A stretch of DNA of 64,000 bases from Planctomycetota bacterium (GTDB taxonomy: Bacteria; Planctomycetota; Planctomycetia; Pirellulales; Pirellulaceae), in assembly GCA_014381825.1 (NCBI GenBank), contig JACNKX010000073.1:1-64000 (forward strand), read 5' to 3'. A model generated the notes under the pieces. That model made no database searches, was not told the origin of the DNA, and worked only from the letters and a program-made list of their open reading frames with translations. A program made the translations under genes and the position numbers. This document shows positions 18,702 to 51,270 of this stretch, piece after piece (positions within the stretch are counted from its first letter, which is position 1; every line of letters starts with the position of its first letter).

Positions 18702-19868
18702 ATGGCAAACATCTACGGAATCGACGAAGTTGGAATCGAATTAGCCGCAAATACAAAGAAACTCGCCGAACAAATAAAACAGCGCGCGGTCGAAGTCGAC
18801 GCCGAGGCCAAGTTCCCGGCGGAGTCCCTTGCGGAACTCGGCGCGGCGGGCTTTTTGGGGCTGTGCATGCCCACCGAAGCTGGTGGCAAGGGCCAACCGC
18901 CCGGCGTGTTCGCGGCCGTCGTCGAAGAGCTCGCACAGGCGTGTCCCTCGACGGCAATGGTTTACGTAATGCATGTATGTGCTTCGCAAACATTTGTAGC
19001 GTCGAAAACCCTGGCGGGTCGAGACTTGTTGTTACAACAGGTCGCTGCTGGAAAACATCTGACGACATTGGCCTTTTCCGAGCGAGGTTCGCGATCGCAG
19101 TTTTGGGCTCCCGTCTCGCAGATGCACACCAACGCAGATGGCGGCTTCGTCACGTGCGCAAGCAAGTCGTGGGTAACGTCCGCGAATCACGCAAATTCAT
19201 ACGTCTCGAGTACTCAGAAACCAGACGCCGTGTCACCTCTTGAATCGACCATCTACTTGGCTCGTCGCGATGCAGCTGGTGTGAAAATCGCGGGTAGCTT
19301 CGATGGCTTGGGCCTGCGCGGAAACGATTCGGCCCCAGTCGATATCACCGATCTTGCCGTTGCCGAGGGAGAATTGCTCACACCGCAAGGAGAGGGCGCG
19401 GGCATGATGCTCGAAGTCGTGCTTCCCTGGTTTTCTGTTGGCACTGCAGCAATGGGTCATGGCCTGTGCCTCGCCGCAATCGGCGCTACACAAGCACATT
19501 TAAAGAGCGCAGGATTTGAAACCGACGGCAGCAAACTTCGTGATCTTCCAAACCTCCGAGCACGCATAGCCGAGATGAGTTGTCGAACAGCGCAGAGTCG
19601 CGCGTTGCTAAGTGTCACTACTCAGATGATGCTCGCGCCGACTGAAGAAACGCCGCTGTACGTTCTCCAGTCACGCATGGCCGCTCTCGAAGCCGCCTTG
19701 CACGTAACCGACCTCGCCATGAAGGCTTGCGGAGGTGCAGCCTTCTCGCGGCATCTCGGCATCGAGCAAATGTTCCGCGACGCACGCGCCGGTTGGGTCA
19801 TGGCACCCACCGTCGATCACCTGCAAGAGTTCGTCGGTCGGGCACTCACGGGATTACCGCTGTTCTAG
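18702..19868 (+). CDS. Acyl-CoA dehydrogenase family protein
   Basis: 388 aa with N-terminal helical, middle beta (AFSERGSRSQFWAP, CASKSWVTSANHAN, GLGLRGNDSAPVDI) and C-terminal helical (GGAAFSRHLGIEQMFRDAR) domains of the FAD-dependent acyl-CoA dehydrogenase superfamily. The catalytic base of classic members is not obvious, so it may act on a non-CoA substrate, as in flavin monooxygenase-like relatives. The start codon follows the porin stop closely. It lies upstream of the PhnD-like and ferritin-like genes on the same strand, suggesting a joint but unknown pathway. Confidence 0.85.
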   Translation: MANIYGIDEVGIELAANTKKLAEQIKQRAVEVDAEAKFPAESLAELGAAGFLGLCMPTEAGGKGQPPGVFAAVVEELAQACPSTAMVYVMHVCASQTFVASKTLAGRDLLLQQVAAGKHLTTLAFSERGSRSQFWAPVSQMHTNADGGFVTCASKSWVTSANHANSYVSSTQKPDAVSPLESTIYLARRDAAGVKIAGSFDGLGLRGNDSAPVDITDLAVAEGELLTPQGEGAGMMLEVVLPWFSVGTAAMGHGLCLAAIGATQAHLKSAGFETDGSKLRDLPNLRARIAEMSCRTAQSRALLSVTTQMMLAPTEETPLYVLQSRMAALEAALHVTDLAMKACGGAAFSRHLGIEQMFRDARAGWVMAPTVDHLQEFVGRALTGLPLF

Positions 19869-20027
19869 CCGAGTTGTTGCGCGCAGGCCGTCTGATCCAT
19901 ACACAGGGAGTGCCCCGAACTTCGACTGGCTGGGACGCATCGCAACGACTTTCTGGTACACTCTCGGCATTGCCTGAAAGAACGACGCTCCTATGGCTCG
20001 CTTCTCTTGAATAAGGACGGAACGAAC

Positions 20028-20834
20028 GTGAGTGATGAAACGATTCTGCTTGGCGCGGTAGCCTATGATGCCAAAGTCGTGACGATTTGGGAGGGCATTC
20101 GTGATCACTTCAATCAGAACGGTGCGCCGATGGACTTTGTGCTGTTCTCGAACTACGAACGGCAAGTCGAACTGCTGCTGAAGGGTCACATCGACGTCGC
20201 GTGGAACACGCCGCTGGCTCATGTCCGCGTGCAACAACAAACGGATAACCGTTCGATATCGCTGGGAACGCGTGACTCGGATCAAGATTTCCATTCGCGA
20301 GTCGTCGTGCGAAACGATTCGGGGATCGAGTCGATCAAGGATCTTGAGGGAAAGACGCTGGCCGTCGGCAGTCGCGATTCGACACAAGCTAGAATCCTGC
20401 CTCTGCACTTCCTTCGCGCCGAAGGCGTCGAATTGACGAAAGTCAACTTATTGAAGTTTGATACCGACGTTGGCAAGCACGGCGATACCGGTACCAGTGA
20501 AATCGACGTCCTCGAAGCGGTCGCCGACGGGCGAGCGCAGGCTGGAACGGTGGGCGATCTGATCTGGGTCAACGAGCAGTCCGCCGGCCACGTTGATGCA
20601 AACCTGATTCGTTCGCTGTGGACGACGCCGCCATTCGATCACTGTATGTTTGATGTTCTTCCCGATCTCGACGCTGGCAAGATCGAACGGTTCAAGAAGG
20701 CCTTGTTCGGGATGACGTGGGACGTTCCCGAACATCGAAGGCTGTTAGAGTTGGAAGGCTTGAAAGTCTGGATGCCGCCTCGTGAAGATGGATACAACAG
20801 CCTGCGAGATGCGCTGGCGAGTCCGACTCCTTAA
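20028..20834 (+). CDS. PhnD/SsuA-like substrate-binding protein without signal peptide
   Basis: 268 aa; the GTG start follows AAGGACGG by 7 bases. The fold is the periplasmic binding type II used by phosphonate/phosphate and sulfonate ABC transporters: LLLKGHIDVAWNTPLAHV, SIKDLEGKTLAVGSRDSTQA and EAVADGRAQAGTVGD. No signal peptide or lipobox is seen and no ABC permease or ATPase is adjacent, so the protein is probably cytoplasmic and may be a ligand sensor or enzyme. It lies between the acyl-CoA dehydrogenase and the TusA/ferritin fusion. Confidence 0.75.
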   Translation: MSDETILLGAVAYDAKVVTIWEGIRDHFNQNGAPMDFVLFSNYERQVELLLKGHIDVAWNTPLAHVRVQQQTDNRSISLGTRDSDQDFHSRVVVRNDSGIESIKDLEGKTLAVGSRDSTQARILPLHFLRAEGVELTKVNLLKFDTDVGKHGDTGTSEIDVLEAVADGRAQAGTVGDLIWVNEQSAGHVDANLIRSLWTTPPFDHCMFDVLPDLDAGKIERFKKALFGMTWDVPEHRRLLELEGLKVWMPPREDGYNSLRDALASPTP

Positions 20835-20909
20835 GTAGCTGGATTCGCGAAAATTCAGCCGACGTTTGCCACGACAGAACTTTTGCAAGTTCAGCTACCT
20901 GGGGGAATT

Positions 20910-22160
20910 GTGCAAAACGAAAACGCAGCTTTGGCTATCGACGGAGGCGATCTTGCTCTTGGAGCTGGATTGCTTGCGCTCATTCGTCCGGCTCTCGACT
21001 TGTTGGAACCGGGTGGCGTGCTGGCCGTGAACTCCGTGAATCAGGCGCTGCGTGACGACTTGCCGCGCTGGTGTCAACTTCAGCACCACGAGTATCGAGA
21101 GCGGCAGAAGACGGACCAAGATTATGACCGGCATCTGATCGCACGTGGATCGCTATCTGTTCCTCTCGGCGAGCGCGAAAGCGGCATCACTTTGCCGCAA
21201 CACGAAGGCCACATCTCGGCCGAAGATGTTCTCAATTCGATCCCCATGCCGGAGCATGCGGACCCGACTAGCGGTTTTGCGCCGCGTGGAGCGCGAGTCG
21301 AGCCAGGTGGCCCTCGCTATCCGTTCTCGCTCCTCGATCGCGAACACGTCGCGCCACCGGAAGTTGCCAAGCTGTACGATCAAGCGATCGCCGCGCAATG
21401 GAACGCGAACACGGACATCCCTTGGGACAAGACGCCGAAACTGCCGGACGCGATCGAACGCGCTCTCGGACAGGTCTTCACGTTCTTGGCCGAGAATGAG
21501 CTATCAGCTCTTTACTTGCCGTCGAAATTTATCTCACGCATTCATCCGTCGTATGTCGAGACAGCGATGTTCCTTTCGACCCAGATGGCTGATGAGGCTC
21601 GGCATATCGATGTGTTCCTAAAGCGAGCGCGAGCCGGCGGTGGAGGCTTAGGTGTCTCGTCGGCGACCACGTCACAATCATTGCTCTCGCTGCTTGAACT
21701 CGAAGACTTCACCGAAGCGGCGTTCCTACTTTCAGTGCTCGGTGAAGGAACGTTCCTTGACCTGCTCACGTTCATCGAAGACCATGCGCCGGACGAAGTA
21801 ACTGCCGAGGTCGTTCGACGAGCGCGCAACGACGAGGCGCGGCACGTTCACTTCGGCCTAGTACACGTCCGTCATGCTTTGGTTCACGACGAGTCTCTCT
21901 ATTCTCGGCTGGAAGCGGCTGTGCGAAGGCGAGCTGCGACGCTGTCCAATGTTGGCGGAGCCCCCGAGCCTCTGCAAGACGGACTGACTGTTCTTGCCGC
22001 TGGAAGCACGACGGCGAAAGCGATCGGTCGTGGACACGACGCGTTTCGCGAGTTGCTGCATACGATGCATGAAAGCCGCGTGAAACGATTGGAACATGCC
22101 GGCTTTACTGTCGAGCAGGCTCAGACCTTGTCGGATCTGCACACACCAAACTTCATGTAA
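20910..22160 (+). CDS. Degenerate TusA domain fused to a ferritin-like di-iron domain
   Basis: 416 aa from a GTG (a TTG nine codons upstream is an alternative). Residues about 1-80 resemble TusA (ALDLLEPGGVLAVNSVNQAL, DDLPRWCQLQHHEY, RHLIARG) but lack the Cys-Pro of the sulfur-carrier site. A linker leads to a four-helix di-iron domain with two E-x-x-H sites, both written DEARH (QMADEARHIDVF and NDEARHVHFG), plus candidate partner Glu residues in FLAENELSALY and LGEGTFLDL. This suggests an O2-dependent oxidase/oxygenase or a ferritin-like protein. The fusion beside an acyl-CoA dehydrogenase-like flavoprotein hints at a two-component oxidation; the substrate is unknown. Confidence 0.7.
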   Translation: MQNENAALAIDGGDLALGAGLLALIRPALDLLEPGGVLAVNSVNQALRDDLPRWCQLQHHEYRERQKTDQDYDRHLIARGSLSVPLGERESGITLPQHEGHISAEDVLNSIPMPEHADPTSGFAPRGARVEPGGPRYPFSLLDREHVAPPEVAKLYDQAIAAQWNANTDIPWDKTPKLPDAIERALGQVFTFLAENELSALYLPSKFISRIHPSYVETAMFLSTQMADEARHIDVFLKRARAGGGGLGVSSATTSQSLLSLLELEDFTEAAFLLSVLGEGTFLDLLTFIEDHAPDEVTAEVVRRARNDEARHVHFGLVHVRHALVHDESLYSRLEAAVRRRAATLSNVGGAPEPLQDGLTVLAAGSTTAKAIGRGHDAFRELLHTMHESRVKRLEHAGFTVEQAQTLSDLHTPNFM

Positions 22161-22381
22161 TCGCGAGGTATGGCAAGTGACGAGCTCGTACGACACGACA
22201 AATCGCCGCACAGCCGGTTATTCCTTTGGAGTGACCGATTTGGTAATGGCAACGTTTCAGCTATAATCGGATGTTTCAACCCGTTCTGAGTACCCCCGTT
22301 CCGAGTACCCTGGGGTGCATGCTTCTCGCCCGCCAGCTCGAACGAACCGCTCATTCTCGCAACATCCTGTCTGTTCCTCTT

Positions 22382-22729
22382 ATGCAACCTAAAAAGTTCA
22401 TCCTGAACCCCACCCGGACGGCCAAACAAGGGTCGCAGATCAATGTTGGAAAATTTGGCGACGAATACCAGAAGATTGTGACAACGTTAGAGATTAGCCC
22501 TGCCGATATGGAATCTCTGGGGGTTGCCACGGGTGATTCTGTCCGAGTCAGCACTGAGTTTGGCGAAGCGGTCTTTCAATGTACCGAAGCCAAAGTTCCA
22601 GACGGGTTGCTGTTCATTCCCTATGGTCCGCCGACGTGTCGGTTGATGAACGGAGATACGGATGGGACCGGAATGCCGACCTCCAAAGGTTGGGAAGTTG
22701 AAGTTGTGCGGGTCGACGCCCCCGAGTAA
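22382..22729 (+). CDS. fwdD: Formylmethanofuran dehydrogenase subunit D (molybdopterin-dinucleotide binding)
   Basis: 115 aa. The start at MQPKKFILNPTRTAKQG matches the family N-terminus; an in-frame extension upstream is not conserved-looking. The double-psi barrel domain shows NVGKFGDEYQKIVTTLEI, DMESLGVATGDSVRVSTEFG and LFIPYGPPTCRLMNG with DGTGMP near the end. This corresponds to the C-terminal pterin-binding domain of formate dehydrogenases, split off as FwdD in methanogens. Together with FwdB it would bind the bis-molybdopterin-guanine-dinucleotide Mo or W cofactor. It is the first gene of the fwd group. Confidence 0.88.
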   Translation: MQPKKFILNPTRTAKQGSQINVGKFGDEYQKIVTTLEISPADMESLGVATGDSVRVSTEFGEAVFQCTEAKVPDGLLFIPYGPPTCRLMNGDTDGTGMPTSKGWEVEVVRVDAPE

Positions 22730-23072: not shown

Positions 23073-24407
23073 ATGACTCTCACTGTCGTAAATAATGCGA
23101 CGTGTACGTTCTGCGGATGTGTCTGCGATGATATCGAACTGCATGCGGACGAGATTAAAATCCACAAAGCAAAGAAAGCGTGCGTTTTGGGTACGGCATG
23201 GTTCTTGAACCACACCGCCGAACGAAAATATCCAGACGCCTTGATCGACGGCAAAGAAGCGACGCTCGATGAAGCGATCGAAGCCGCCGCGACATATTTA
23301 CACGAAGCCGACATGCCGTTGGTTTACGGCATGAGCAATACAACCTGCGAAGCTCAACGCGAGTGTGTGGCACTGGCAGACCTCTTGGGAGGTTTGCTGG
23401 ACAGTCACACATCCTTGTGACATGGTCCCACGGAAATCGCCGCCCAGTTGGGTGGCAAAGTCACTTGCACGCTCGGTGAAGTTAAGAACCGAGCTGATTT
23501 CATTGTGTACTGGGGAGGCAATCCAGCGGAGTGCCACCCAAGACATTTCACCAAATACGCCTTGATGCCAAAGAGCAAATTCCTGCCAAGAGGGCGGAAA
23601 GATCGGACGGCGGTCCTGGTCGACATTCGCCCGACGAAGAGCGCGAAAGCTTGCGACATTTTTCTTCAGGTGCGACCAGGCAAAGACTTTGAATTGATTA
23701 CGATTCTGCGCGCACTGATTAAAGATCAAAAAGTCAGCGAAGAGGCCGTTGCCGAAACCGGTGTTTCGCTTGAGCAATGCAACGACCTTGTCGATCGCAT
23801 GAAGAAAGCGAAGTTTGGGTGCATGTTCTTTGGCATGGGGCTGTCGATGACGCGCGGAAAACATATGAACTCGGCGGCGTTGTTAACGCTCGCCACCGAA
23901 ATGAACGCTTTCACCAAGTTCGTCGCGATGCCGATGCGAGGCCATGGCAATGTCACGGGTGCCGATGTCGTGATGCGTTGGCAAACTGGATATCCGTTCG
24001 GCATTACGTTTAACCGAGGCTATCCTCGATATAACCCGGGCGAGTTCTCGACGGTCGATGTCCTCGTTCGTGGCGACACGGATGCGGCCTTCATCATCGG
24101 TGCGGATCCCGGCGCGACGATGCCTCAGCCGGCGATCGATCATCTCGCTCGTATCCCGACGATCGTACTGGACCCGCACATCACACATACCAGTAAGCTC
24201 TCTCGCGTACACATCACTACCTCCGTCGCCGGAATCTCGGCACCAGGGACGGCTTATCGGATGGACGAAATTCCTTTACCGTTAAAGCCAGCTCTCAAAT
24301 CGCCCTACCCGACCGACGAAGAAGTCGTTCGCCGTATTAAGGACGCGATTGCCAAAAAGCGGTTCTGGATGCCCGAGGGCGAACAAATGATTACAGCGCA
24401 GATCTAG
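23073..24407 (+). CDS. fwdB: Formylmethanofuran dehydrogenase subunit B, selenocysteine-containing
   Basis: Read through one in-frame TGA this is a 444-aa FwdB; without it the frame splits into 115 and about 320 codons in the same phase. AGGAG lies 5 bases before the ATG. The N-terminus has the [4Fe-4S] cysteines Cys11, Cys14, Cys18 and Cys37 (CTFCGCVCDD, KKACVLG). The TGA at 23418-23420 is codon 116 in the context SHTSL-U-HGPTEIA. Archaeal FwdB carries Cys or Sec at this site (Cys118 in Methanothermobacter), the ligand of Mo/W, followed by His-Gly-Pro as in formate dehydrogenase H. A hairpin suited to SelB lies just downstream. The rest fits FwdB (YWGGNPAECHPRH, MRGHGNVTGAD, GADPGATMP, DPHITHTS). 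It would interconvert CO2 and formate for N-formylation of a methanofuran analogue, with FwdA, FwdC and FwdD. Its electron partner is not in the window. Confidence 0.88.
23417..23464 (+). promoter_or_regulatory. Bacterial SECIS-like hairpin after the fwdB TGA
   Basis: The apical stem GCCGCCC (23439-23445) pairs with GGGTGGC (23450-23456), seven pairs with one G-U, closing the loop AGTT with G in loop position 2. The loop begins 25 nt after the TGA, within the range described for bacterial SECIS elements. An outer 5-bp stem, GTGAC (23417-23421, overlapping the TGA) with GTCAC (23460-23464), could place the codon at the base, as in E. coli fdhF. Found by eye; no energy was computed. Confidence 0.7.
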
Positions 24408-24417
24408 AAACACTAGT

Positions 24418-24484
24418 CGTTTAACGGCAAGCCGAAGGCGACTTCGTATTGCGGGCACGGTCGCCTTCGGCTTGCCGTTAAACG
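24418..24484. repeat. 25-bp perfect palindromic repeat between fwdB and fwdA
   Basis: The left arm 24418-24442 (beginning CGTTTAACGGCAAGCCG, ending GGCGAC) is the exact reverse complement of the right arm 24460-24484, around a 17-base loop. A close relative lies after fwdC at 26983-27056. Likely a REP-like or small non-autonomous mobile element; as RNA it would form a very stable hairpin that could separate fwdB and fwdA expression. Confidence 0.85.
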
Positions 24485-24512
24485 ATGGGACAAAACAAGC
24501 AGAAAGCGACGC

Positions 24513-26147
24513 ATGCTTCGAATTACGGGTGGAAAAATCTTCGATCCCGCGAATGGAATTGACGGCGAAGTACGGGAGCTTTGCGTCTCGGACGGGAAGT
24601 TCGCCGCATCGGTCGACGGCGGTCGGACAATTGACGCGGCCGGCATGATTGTCTTTCCTGGCGGCGTCGACGTACACACGCATGTCGCGGGCGGCGCGAT
24701 CAATTTTGCGCGAGCGATGACTCCCGAAGATCATCGTCGGACACAAGCCTTCATTCGCTCTCAGAGTCGGCGCTCCGGACTCGGCGGGATGGCTCCGACG
24801 ACCTTTGCGACGGGTTATCTGTATGCGGGGATGGGTTGGACGACCGTCAACGAAGCCGCGGTTCCTGTTCTCTCTGCGCGCCACACACACGAAGAACTGG
24901 GCGACATTCCGATCGTGGACAAGGCGACGTGCGTTTTGATGGCGAACAACGAGATCGTACTCGACCTGCTCGAAAACGGCGAGTATGAACGAGCCAAGAA
25001 CGTCGTTGCCTGGTACATTTGGGCTGCCAAGTCCTACGGAGTGAAAGCCGTCAATCCTGGTGGAGTCGCAGCCTGGAAGTGGGGTAAAGACGCGAAGCAA
25101 TTGACATCCGCAATCGAAGGCTACAGCAAGCTGACTCCCGGGGACATCGTTACTCAGTTAGCAATGATCTGCGACGATCTCGGCCTCCCGCATCCGATGC
25201 ATCTGCACTGCAACAACCTCGGAGCGCCAGGCAACATTTCGACGACGCTCGACACGTTGCAGCATCTAGAAGGGCATCGAGCCCATATCGCTCACTCTCA
25301 GTATCACGCGTATGGGGGCGACGACTGGGACGAAATGCGATCCGAAACGGTACAACTAGCCGAGTACTTCAATACGCATCCCAACATCACGACGGATGCC
25401 GGTGCCGTTTTGTTTGGTGACACCGTTACGATAACCGCAGACGGCCCATGGCAGCATCTGCTGTATAAATTAACGGGACGCAAATGGGGCAACTTGGATA
25501 TCGAGAACGAGACGGGCTGTGGCATCGTTCCGTACACTTACCGACCGAGCAACCTTGTCAACGCAATCCAGTGGGCGGTCGGGTTAGAGCTGTTGTTGTT
25601 GATCAAAAATCCGTGGCAAGTGTTTCTGTCGACCGATCATCCAAACGGTGGTTGCTTCTGGCGATATCCGGAAATCATACAGCTACTCATGTGCGCAGAC
25701 TTCCGCAATGAATGTTTGACGAAACTTCCCGACAAGATCAAGGGGCGAATCACACTGCCAGAGCTAGATCGCGAGTACACGCTGTACGAGATCGCGACCG
25801 CGATGTCTGCTGGGCCAGCAAGGGCGCTCGGCTTGCACCAAAAGGGGAATCTTGGTGTCGGCTGCGACGCTGATATCGTGATCTACGAAGAGGATGACGA
25901 TGTGGCTCGTATGTTCAGTCACCCAAGATACGTGATTAAAGGCGGTGAAATTGTCATCGAGGACGGTGATATTCGTGCCACTCCGGACGGACAAGAGTTT
26001 ATCGTCAAACCGAGCTATGACCCCGGGACTGACGAGTTCTTGCAGCCGCTATTTGAAGACTGCTACACCATGGCGTTCGAGAACTACCCCGTCGAAATGG
26101 AGCGTATGGAGAACCCCGACATCCGTGACTGCGTGCCGAACTCATGA
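24513..26147 (+). CDS. fwdA: Formylmethanofuran dehydrogenase subunit A (amidohydrolase)
   Basis: 544 aa binuclear-metal amidohydrolase. The ligands line up with archaeal FwdA: His55 and His57 (VDVHTHVAGG), Lys178 for carboxylation (YGVKAVNPGG), His230 (HPMHLHCNN) and catalytic Asp375 (STDHPNGG). FwdA transfers the formyl group between formate and the amine of methanofuran; in the Methylorubrum Fhc complex the same subunit hydrolyses formyl-methanofuran. C-terminal sequence (LDREYTLYEIATAMSAGPARALGL, GCDADIVIYEED) is the usual amidohydrolase end. Overlaps fwdC by ATGA. The 105-base gap to fwdB contains the long palindrome. Confidence 0.95.
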   Translation: MLRITGGKIFDPANGIDGEVRELCVSDGKFAASVDGGRTIDAAGMIVFPGGVDVHTHVAGGAINFARAMTPEDHRRTQAFIRSQSRRSGLGGMAPTTFATGYLYAGMGWTTVNEAAVPVLSARHTHEELGDIPIVDKATCVLMANNEIVLDLLENGEYERAKNVVAWYIWAAKSYGVKAVNPGGVAAWKWGKDAKQLTSAIEGYSKLTPGDIVTQLAMICDDLGLPHPMHLHCNNLGAPGNISTTLDTLQHLEGHRAHIAHSQYHAYGGDDWDEMRSETVQLAEYFNTHPNITTDAGAVLFGDTVTITADGPWQHLLYKLTGRKWGNLDIENETGCGIVPYTYRPSNLVNAIQWAVGLELLLLIKNPWQVFLSTDHPNGGCFWRYPEIIQLLMCADFRNECLTKLPDKIKGRITLPELDREYTLYEIATAMSAGPARALGLHQKGNLGVGCDADIVIYEEDDDVARMFSHPRYVIKGGEIVIEDGDIRATPDGQEFIVKPSYDPGTDEFLQPLFEDCYTMAFENYPVEMERMENPDIRDCVPNS

Positions 26148-26959
26148 GTAAGATCACCCTCCGACTCAAAGAACAGCCCACTGTGCCGCTGGAAGCCGAG
26201 ATTCTCTCGCCGGATACGTTCGCTGAGCTTTCGAATGACGAGATACGTTCAAAGATCGTTTACCACGGAAAACGGCAATGCCGATTGGACGACTTCTTCG
26301 ACGTCGATGGTGAACGCAGCGACGAACTTGAGCTTCACGGCGACCTGCATCGCGTACGTTGGATTGGCCGCGAAATGTCGCGAGGTCGTATCACCGTACA
26401 TGGTTCGGTTGGCATGCATCTCGGCGCGTACATGAAGGGCGGTGAGATCGAAGTCCATGGCAACGCCAGCGATTGGATCGGCGCTGAAATGCGGAGAGGT
26501 CTAATCCGCGTTCATGGCAATGGCGGCGGTCAGATCGGGGCAGGATATCGCGGCAGCCTGAAAGGCATGCGAAACGGAACTATAATTGTCGACGGTTCAG
26601 CAGGACTCGAAGTCGGCATGCGAATGCGACGTGGCACGATTGTGATTGGCGGCCCTGCCAAAGACTTTACGGGCCTGCAAATGAAGGGCGGGACAATCGT
26701 CTTGCTGTCTGGTGCCGAAATTCGCACCGGTGCCTGGATGATGCGAGGCACGATTATTTCTATGAAGCCGATTCCAATGTTGCCGACGTTTACCTATGCA
26801 TGCCAGTACACGCCTGACTTCCTGAAGGTCTACTCGCGGCAACTGAAGCCGCTCGGCATCGACCTCCCGTGCGACTCGGGCGACGGGGCGTACGAACTGT
26901 ATTCGGGCGATGCTTCGGTACCAGGCAAGGGTGAAATCCTGGTCCGACAAGCCGGCTGA
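26144..26959 (+). CDS. fwdC: Formylmethanofuran dehydrogenase subunit C
   Basis: 271 aa, start inside the fwdA stop (ATGA). Residues about 70-210 form a right-handed beta-helix of GXGXG type, as at the end of glutamate synthase: repeated turns such as GRITVHGSVGMHLGAYMKGG, GLIRVHGNGGGQIGA and GTIIVDGSAGLEVGMRMRRG. FwdC is a structural subunit, and in Fhc it works with FhcD. C-terminal FTYACQYTPDFLKVYSRQL is typical for bacterial FhcC. The formyltransferase ftr/fhcD is not next to it but at 50386-51270 on the other strand. Confidence 0.93.
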   Translation: MSKITLRLKEQPTVPLEAEILSPDTFAELSNDEIRSKIVYHGKRQCRLDDFFDVDGERSDELELHGDLHRVRWIGREMSRGRITVHGSVGMHLGAYMKGGEIEVHGNASDWIGAEMRRGLIRVHGNGGGQIGAGYRGSLKGMRNGTIIVDGSAGLEVGMRMRRGTIVIGGPAKDFTGLQMKGGTIVLLSGAEIRTGAWMMRGTIISMKPIPMLPTFTYACQYTPDFLKVYSRQLKPLGIDLPCDSGDGAYELYSGDASVPGKGEILVRQAG

Positions 26960-50385: not shown

Positions 50386-51270
50386 CTACACAAGTTCACG
50401 AAGATGGAAATGAAACTTGCCGAGTTGTCCACCGTAGTTTCCGGCCGTAATGGCAATTATCCCTTCACCCGCTGCAGCGTGCAGCAGCGTCTTCATGCCG
50501 GTCGCGACCACACTTTCGTCGAGACCATCCAACACGATTTCGTAGACGCAGTTCACACCGTCGTGCAGCTTGGTTTCAACGCGGCCACGAAGCGTTGGGC
50601 AATAGGCATCCGCTGTCGAAGCTGGCAGTGCACTATACCGCGAGCCGACTTTACTGCCGCTTCGTGCGACGCCTCCTGGAAAAGGAGCAATCACACCTTT
50701 GCAGGCAGCAACGGCTTCGATCGCACGCCGCACTGCTGCAAGCCCAGTCGACATGTCGACAGACTGAATGATGACATTACCGCCGGCAACGCCCTTTTCA
50801 ATCCCAACGCGATCTTCAACGAGAAACTCGCCATCCATCACGGGCACGCGCCAGTAGCGCCGACCTTCAAGGAGCTTGCTCTTTTGAAAACCGTCGCCAA
50901 AGAAACGAATGTTCTTACCGAGGCCAACGCGCGTTTCTGCATCGGGCAGTCCGTCGAATACAGCGGTCGTTGGACACGTCATCACGCATTGGCCAACTCG
51001 ATTGACAAGGGCTTTCCCAACAGCCTTGGGCGAGAAGCCAAAGACTAGCACCGATGCGCCGACGCGTCCGTCAGGCGTTGACTCCGCATCGAGCATTCGT
51101 TCGATGCCGGTTTCCGCGTCGCAGGCGATGACCGACGAACTGTAACCTGTCAACTCTCGCAACGCAGCGTCAAGCCAATGCTCGTCATAAGCCGTTATGC
51201 ACAGCCGTGCGTAGACCATACGAAAAGCTTCCGCAAACGTGTCTTCGATGAGTGTGTCGCCGATTTTCAA
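50386..51270 (-). CDS. ftr: Formylmethanofuran:tetrahydromethanopterin formyltransferase
   Basis: 294 aa from a TTG start, well supported by AGAAGGA 7 bases upstream and by the conserved N-terminus MKIGDTLIEDTFAEAFRMVY. Two related halves are seen, with the conserved blocks NRVGQCVMTCPTTAVFDGLP, FFGDGFQKSKLLEGRRYWRV, GEFLVEDRVGIEKGVAGGN and FPGGVARSGSKVGS. Ftr (FhcD) moves the formyl group between methanofuran and H4MPT. It completes the reaction chain of fwdABCD, although it lies 24 kb away on the opposite strand, a split arrangement known in planctomycetes. Confidence 0.95.
   Translation of the reverse strand: MKIGDTLIEDTFAEAFRMVYARLCITAYDEHWLDAALRELTGYSSSVIACDAETGIERMLDAESTPDGRVGASVLVFGFSPKAVGKALVNRVGQCVMTCPTTAVFDGLPDAETRVGLGKNIRFFGDGFQKSKLLEGRRYWRVPVMDGEFLVEDRVGIEKGVAGGNVIIQSVDMSTGLAAVRRAIEAVAACKGVIAPFPGGVARSGSKVGSRYSALPASTADAYCPTLRGRVETKLHDGVNCVYEIVLDGLDESVVATGMKTLLHAAAGEGIIAITAGNYGGQLGKFHFHLRELV

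Follow-up and report, generated by a model that had tools for sequence, protein, structure and literature searches.

A planctomycete very probably makes the one-carbon (C1) enzyme FwdB with selenocysteine (Sec) at its metal site. The fwdB gene lies within the 64,000-nucleotide stretch of DNA analysed here (the window) and contains a single in-frame TGA, whose decoding as Sec fits the sequence far better than any other reading. We are confident that fwdB encodes the Sec-containing FwdB of a formylmethanofuran dehydrogenase, with its UGA predicted to be decoded via SelB and a downstream hairpin. The features that bear on this reading are the following.

22271..22729, forward strand: fwdD candidate, with a molybdopterin dinucleotide-binding domain (PF01568); the gene may really start downstream of 22271
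23073..24407, forward strand: fwdB read through UGA, 444 residues (TIGR03129, 504.7 bits; model pLDDT 86.1; TM about 0.9 to FMD B chains)
23418..23420, forward strand: TGA, codon 116 of fwdB, read as selenocysteine
23439..23456, forward strand: putative SECIS hairpin of 7 bp, loop AGUU (23446-23449)
24513..26147, forward strand: fwdA (TIGR03121, 670 bits, cut-off 392.75)
26144..26959, forward strand: fwdC (TIGR03122, 265 bits, cut-off 130.65)
50386..51270, reverse strand: ftr/fhcD, formylmethanofuran:H4MPT formyltransferase (TIGR03119, over cut-off), of the same pathway but outside the operon

The fwdB frame runs from an ATG at 23073 to a TAG at 24405-24407 and is interrupted only at codon 116, in the context DSHTSL-U-HGPTEIAAQLGGK. 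The score of its product with the NCBIfam model TIGR03129 is over the curated cut-off of 327.8 bits. The product has the four cysteines expected to ligate a [4Fe-4S] cluster (Cys 11, 14, 18 and 37, invariant across a 19-row alignment) and a Sec/Cys-type ligand position before HGP; in the alignment with chain 5t5i_B of M. wolfei (9e-108), residue 116 falls on a Cys followed by HGP. A preliminary description of this DNA had given the same frame, TGA position and 444-codon length, had placed TSL-U-HGPTE at the Cys/Sec-HGP site and had called the cluster cysteines intact, and on all of these points it was correct. The AlphaFold model (pTM 0.84; the pLDDT of 86.1 is a mean, falling below 50 at residues 121-129) superimposes on FMD B chains with a TMq of 0.89-0.90, versus 0.65-0.66 for Methylorubrum Fhc B chains. 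Loss of the metal ligand or redox site, by which the Fhc hydrolase type is recognised, was not found in FwdB, where the ligand column holds UGA and the cluster cysteines are retained. Both fwdA and fwdC, in the same operon, terminate in TGA, which implies that TGA has undergone no general reassignment in the host.

Among solved structures, the archaeal tungsten enzymes (5t5i_B from M. wolfei and 8rja_B) resemble FwdB in fold (TMq 0.89, about 40% identity), in the HGP-flanked ligand column, in the cluster cysteines and in having the catalytic subunits A-D; they differ in carrying Cys rather than Sec, and their FwdF and FwdG do not recur beside the bacterial operon. The best sequence match, at 383 bits, is 9sfi_Q (annotated "molybdopterin oxidoreductase"), which has an X, probably Sec, at the ligand position but lies outside the bacterial Sec clade. 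Methylorubrum FhcB (6s6y_B) shares the superfamily and a bacterial C1 pathway with FwdB, but the match is weak, mainly over residues 238-426, with a TMq of 0.65. The earlier view that the bacterial Fhc complex lacks the redox site agrees with this short, C-terminal-half match of the Methylorubrum protein but not with the Cys found in 33 of 90 planctomycete FwdBs. Escherichia coli formate dehydrogenase H (1fdi), which has Sec-His at its Mo, has the fold in common with FwdB (TMq 0.73), although identity is only 16%.

Codon 116 is TGA, and never TAA or TAG, in all 80 named relatives kept (the best 80 of the 403 found by a named-genome scan whose peptide patterns excluded residue 116), bearing in mind that near-identical relatives are non-independent in this and every other count and that most sequences compared are MAGs. 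By record title the 80 are planctomycetes, save two Acidobacteria (L102, L125) and one "bacterium" (L094); the labels Fuerstiella, Rhodopirellula, Rubripirellula, Gemmata and Kuenenia also occur among the titles. Within the order, 141 of 196 genomes gave a match, and the TGA form was found in 20, always with an identity of at least 76% (19 verified at codon 116, the 20th, in G061, being split across two contigs); across the phylum, 45 of 392 genomes matched at 1e-30, with the TGA form in 10. Of the 90 order and phylum sequences, 27 have U at residue 116 (these overlap with the 80 named relatives), 33 have Cys and 26 have some other residue; in the last four the position is missing or gapped. 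The U forms are 72-100% identical to the query and every non-U form is at most 61% identical, so that all 27 readable sequences at 72% identity or above have U; stops in the non-U classes all fall after residue 400. The flanks align, as the preliminary description had required, and Cys occupies the column in the nearest sister forms as well as in 5t5i_B.

Planctomycete FwdBs appear from these sequences to show a series of metal-ligand loss. In some, the ligand position is taken by Ser, Glu, His, Gly, Tyr, Asp, Phe, Lys or Asn (L148, L149, L151-L155, L161, L166-L169, L173, L176-L181 and L202), and nearly all FwdBs with a changed ligand residue retain the four cluster cysteines. Two loci carry a second FwdB over the TIGR03129 cut-off in which Thr takes the place of Sec (TSLTHGT; L115:8547-9854 and L120:7053-8306); it lies immediately 5' of the Sec form, in the order D-B'(Thr)-B(Sec), and has AAQLGGKV in common with the Sec clade. 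In L049 a Cys-type FwdB (1250-2542) lies about 8.7 kb from the Sec-type one on the same contig, possibly as an isoenzyme pair.

The preliminary description had also noticed a SECIS-like hairpin after the TGA, and this proved to be constrained across 81 sequences. It begins 18 nt past the UGA (nt 22-39 numbered from the U of UGA), and the segment 23437-23459 has a folding energy of -14.6 kcal/mol. Bacterial SECIS elements are described, in the portion of PMC1088965 available, as a stem-loop that follows the UGA directly and carries a G in its small apical loop, and the fwdB hairpin has this form. The loop GU, made of the third base of a Gln codon and the first base of a Leu codon, is present in 81 of 81 sequences; Gln is always CAG and Leu always UUG there, even though CAA and CUN are synonymous. 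All seven stem pairs form in 72 of the 81 and six in the remaining nine, where only 1.4 of 81 would be expected to have seven pairs plus GU if codons were drawn from each gene's own usage. In every one of the 81 the hairpin energy is lower than the mean for synonymous draws (mean z -1.5), and residues 121-128 have the greatest deficit of synonymous diversity among 219 usable eight-residue windows. Apparent constraint at Ser columns with AGC/AGT alone was put down to the division of the Ser codons between two boxes and rejected. At the same offset, mean hairpin energy is -13.3 kcal/mol in the 27 U forms versus -3.6 in the 33 Cys forms and -4.2 in the 26 others, an impure control given that the Cys and other forms differ in amino acids at the hairpin; the loop GU occurs in two of 33 Cys forms and two of 26 others, and the hairpin is missing from the Cys paralogues. 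Because stem partners sit on fixed codon positions, two-sided covariation is not to be expected, and we claim none. Taken from sequence comparison, these patterns support selection on the fwdB hairpin.

The genes for Sec insertion that the preliminary description had named (selA, selB, selD and tRNA-Sec) are all in the window's genome (G000; 9.69 Mb in 238 contigs, 99.93% complete, 2.71% contaminated). There is one clear tRNA-Sec (67 bits, anticodon TCA), SelA and SelB are encoded side by side on contig C59, and two matches exceed the SelD cut-off. The better of these (L130, at C135:32266-33192) itself contains one TGA in frame; the residues around it, SCAG-U-AGK, agree with the UxxK motif that PMC13188914, in its accessible text, gives for SelD, and this selD would be a second selenoprotein gene of the genome. 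A possible hairpin, GCGCA-GGUCG-UGCGC, lies about 30 nt past its TGA. The other match, a 741-residue open frame, may be a SelD-related fusion rather than SelD. Across the order, tRNA-Sec reaches 60 bits in 56 of 196 genomes, a line set post hoc where the scores drop from 62.2 to 54.8 bits (the Rfam cut-off of 47 bits, reached by 121 of the 196, looks too lax). It does so in 19 of the 20 genomes with TGA-form fwdB versus 37 of the other 176 (Fisher p 6e-11, uncorrected for kinship); the exception, G028, is 81% complete. Genes for Sec insertion adjoin the fwd operon in two of the 80 loci, many of which are short: in L123 (2366-9081), selB, selA, tRNA-Sec and selD all lie less than 8 kb upstream of the fwdB UGA, with SelB, SelA and SelD over their family-model cut-offs, and in L089 selA, selB and selD are likewise nearby.

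The gene order is that of an fwdD-B-A-C operon, so that FwdA, C and D accompany FwdB. For fwdD, which the preliminary description had listed as present, the support is mixed: the candidate passes the Pfam model Molydop_binding (PF01568; 40.5 bits, cut-off 26.8) and an fwdD homologue lies upstream of fwdB in 73 of the 80 relatives, several of whose loci are cut short, but it scores 83 bits with the FwdD model NF042908, under the cut-off of 175. The genome also encodes Mch, Fae and two copies of Ftr, and one copy of FwdB was found in it. Around the operons of the 80 relatives (44 of the loci extend 8 kb upstream of the UGA), no conserved electron-carrier gene recurs, and neither FwdF nor FwdG recurs adjoining them. 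Besides the fwd genes, one cluster recurs in 28 of 80 loci, its longest member Ftr-like by eye; the remaining genes common to neighbouring loci track close kinship. Upstream of fwdD, 18702-22160 holds a block of genes for an acyl-CoA-dehydrogenase-like protein, an Rv1680-type binding protein and a TusA/R2-like protein; we rejected these as members of the system, as they recur in one of the 80 loci (L094, inverted, near fwdB). The gap between fwdB and fwdA contains a perfect 26-nt inverted repeat (24417-24442 and 24460-24485, with a 17-nt spacer), L047 has a different palindrome there and L048 a similar but imperfect one, as if palindromic elements favoured this gap or had a role in it. Two other MopB proteins of the genome were seen: L134, of the FdhF/YdeP type (679.6 bits, cut-off 582), and L133, which passes no cut-off and precedes an ORF that is nitrite-reductase-like by eye.

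From the sequence we would expect SelB, directed by the hairpin, to deliver Sec-tRNA(UCA) to UGA codon 116, and translation to continue to the TAG. Judging by the alignment with solved structures, the product would adopt an archaeal-FwdB-like fold with an N-terminal [4Fe-4S] cluster and Mo/W-bisPGD, and Sec116 would be the protein ligand of Mo/W; the FMD metal ligand is given as Cys, exchangeable by Sec, in the part of PMC11656701 that is available. By analogy with known enzymes, FwdB would join FwdD, FwdA and FwdC in a formylmethanofuran dehydrogenase complex in which FwdA interconverts formyl-methanofuran and formate and FwdB interconverts formate and CO2. The C1 carrier would be methanofuran or methylofuran. 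The presence of Fae, Mch and Ftr in the same genome points to a probably oxidative direction, in which C1 units are released as CO2 and electrons.

If the TGA were instead a true stop, it would mark a pseudogene or a sequencing error, or else FwdB would be made as two chains of 115 and about 319 residues, the second restarting at TTG 23448, and ordinary ORF calling does yield precisely the 115-residue and TTG-23448 pieces. We give this reading very little credence: neither a pseudogene nor an error is expected to recur as TGA, never TAA or TAG, in all 80 kept relatives and all 27 readable clade members; the TTG falls within the constrained hairpin, and a Shine-Dalgarno-like stretch before it was not seen by eye; and purifying selection is strong downstream of the TGA, the dN/dS of the window's fwdB against the 80 relatives having a median of 0.084 (maximum 0.21) after the UGA and 0.14 before it, approximate values with synonymous sites close to saturation. 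It is less improbable, though still unlikely, that the complex, with Sec inserted, acts as an Fhc-like formyl-methanofuran hydrolase releasing formate, with FwdB structural or regulatory. FdhD is the sulfuration factor for formate dehydrogenases, and no match to it was found in the 99.9%-complete genome (the same search passed the cut-off in eight of 14 control genomes); nor was an electron-carrier gene found in the operon, and the ligand Cys/Sec is gone from many planctomycete FwdBs, which are presumably non-redox. Against a hydrolase stand the retention of Sec and the four cluster cysteines, together with His117 and Arg289 (these two discriminate little, as every row of the 19-row alignment has them, rows with a lost ligand included), and the maintenance of a costly Sec across the clade. 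Of the genuine redox Sec enzyme proposed in the preliminary description, then, the evidence supports a probably redox-active FwdB that has Sec as its Mo/W-site residue, while the redox activity itself is something we infer, and FdhD was not found.

The Sec-FwdB might also be a recent gift from methanogenic archaea: PMC10100899, in its available text, treats FwdB as an archaeal protein that was handed on to a few bacterial taxa, and the top solved-structure match, 9sfi_Q, probably has Sec at the site. We think this improbable, since the hairpin lies in the coding region just past the UGA, in bacterial style, and the trees speak against it. The U forms are a single branch in every tree (support 100/100 with 93 rows, 100/99 with 84 and 100/99 with 27). 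Rooted on four archaeal chains (distant rows; proteobacterial FhcBs were not among the tree rows), every sampled planctomycete form falls in one clade (100/100), whose first split separates the U forms from the Cys plus degenerate forms (the latter group supported at 99/95 in the 84-row tree and 89/82 in the 27-row tree), and 9sfi_Q pairs with an archaeal Cys form. Constraining 9sfi_Q, the sole archaeal X row, to group with the bacterial U forms was rejected (p-AU 2.7e-8; 23 planctomycete and four archaeal rows, in a test run once the 84-row tree was known). In the 93-row tree, midpoint-rooted for drawing, the U forms are nested beside Cys forms. Fragments L028 and L170 were left out of the 93-row and 84-row trees, the latter also omitting the long branches L199, L178, L180, L181, L174, L175, L163 and L162, and L098 is absent from the 27-row alignment. 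On these trees, the bacterial Sec clade would have the Cys and degenerate forms sampled from planctomycetes as its sister group, and not the probably Sec-bearing archaeal chain; this placement calls for a larger tree. The Sec of bacterial FwdB may be ancestral or may have been gained separately. There is somewhat less than an even chance that planctomycetes hold an old lineage of Sec-dependent redox FwdB that did not obtain Sec by recent archaeal transfer and that would burn C1 units to CO2, its sister Cys and degenerate forms making up a dehydrogenase-to-hydrolase series (Sec to Cys to His/Ser/Glu/Gly/Phe).

The preliminary description knew of Sec-FwdB in archaea and of no bacterial example, but bacterial Sec-FwdB is already in print: PMC4807772 (2016) reported an fmdB selenoprotein in the Rhodopirellula planctomycete P2 and two unclassified bacteria, glycine forms in three further planctomycetes, and Sec and Cys forms together in some organisms, P2 included. 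The Sec-fmdB of P2 and of a Lake Washington fosmid described there resemble our case in being bacterial, in the fmdD-B-A-C operon, in the genomic Sec machinery and in the occurrence of a Cys form too among planctomycetes; P2 differs in being another species and genome with both Sec and Cys forms, where the window's genome has one FwdB. The preliminary description is thus partly supported, its observation right, its interpretation right in substance and its novelty overstated. Among the matches listed from open-licence papers, we recognised no second report of a planctomycete Sec-FwdB. The available portions of the recent prokaryotic selenoprotein reviews PMC13188914 and PMC9312934 list FwdB among selenoprotein families, with M. 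kandleri as cited work, and do not mention planctomycetes; one of the two assigns FwdB to methanogenic archaea. Neither FwdB nor planctomycete terms occur in the accessible parts of PMC12013277 and PMC5029168. As far as the literature seen goes, we have not met in print the spread across the phylum, the statistics on the SECIS hairpin, the association with tRNA-Sec or the placement in a tree.

Ordinary ORF calling splits Sec-fwdB in two. With at least 80 named genomes in the Sec-FwdB clade, one of them titled a complete chromosome (K23_9), bacterial Sec-FwdB becomes testable in the laboratory, and the clade bears on the change from the first enzyme of methanogenesis to a hydrolase of bacterial C1 oxidation.
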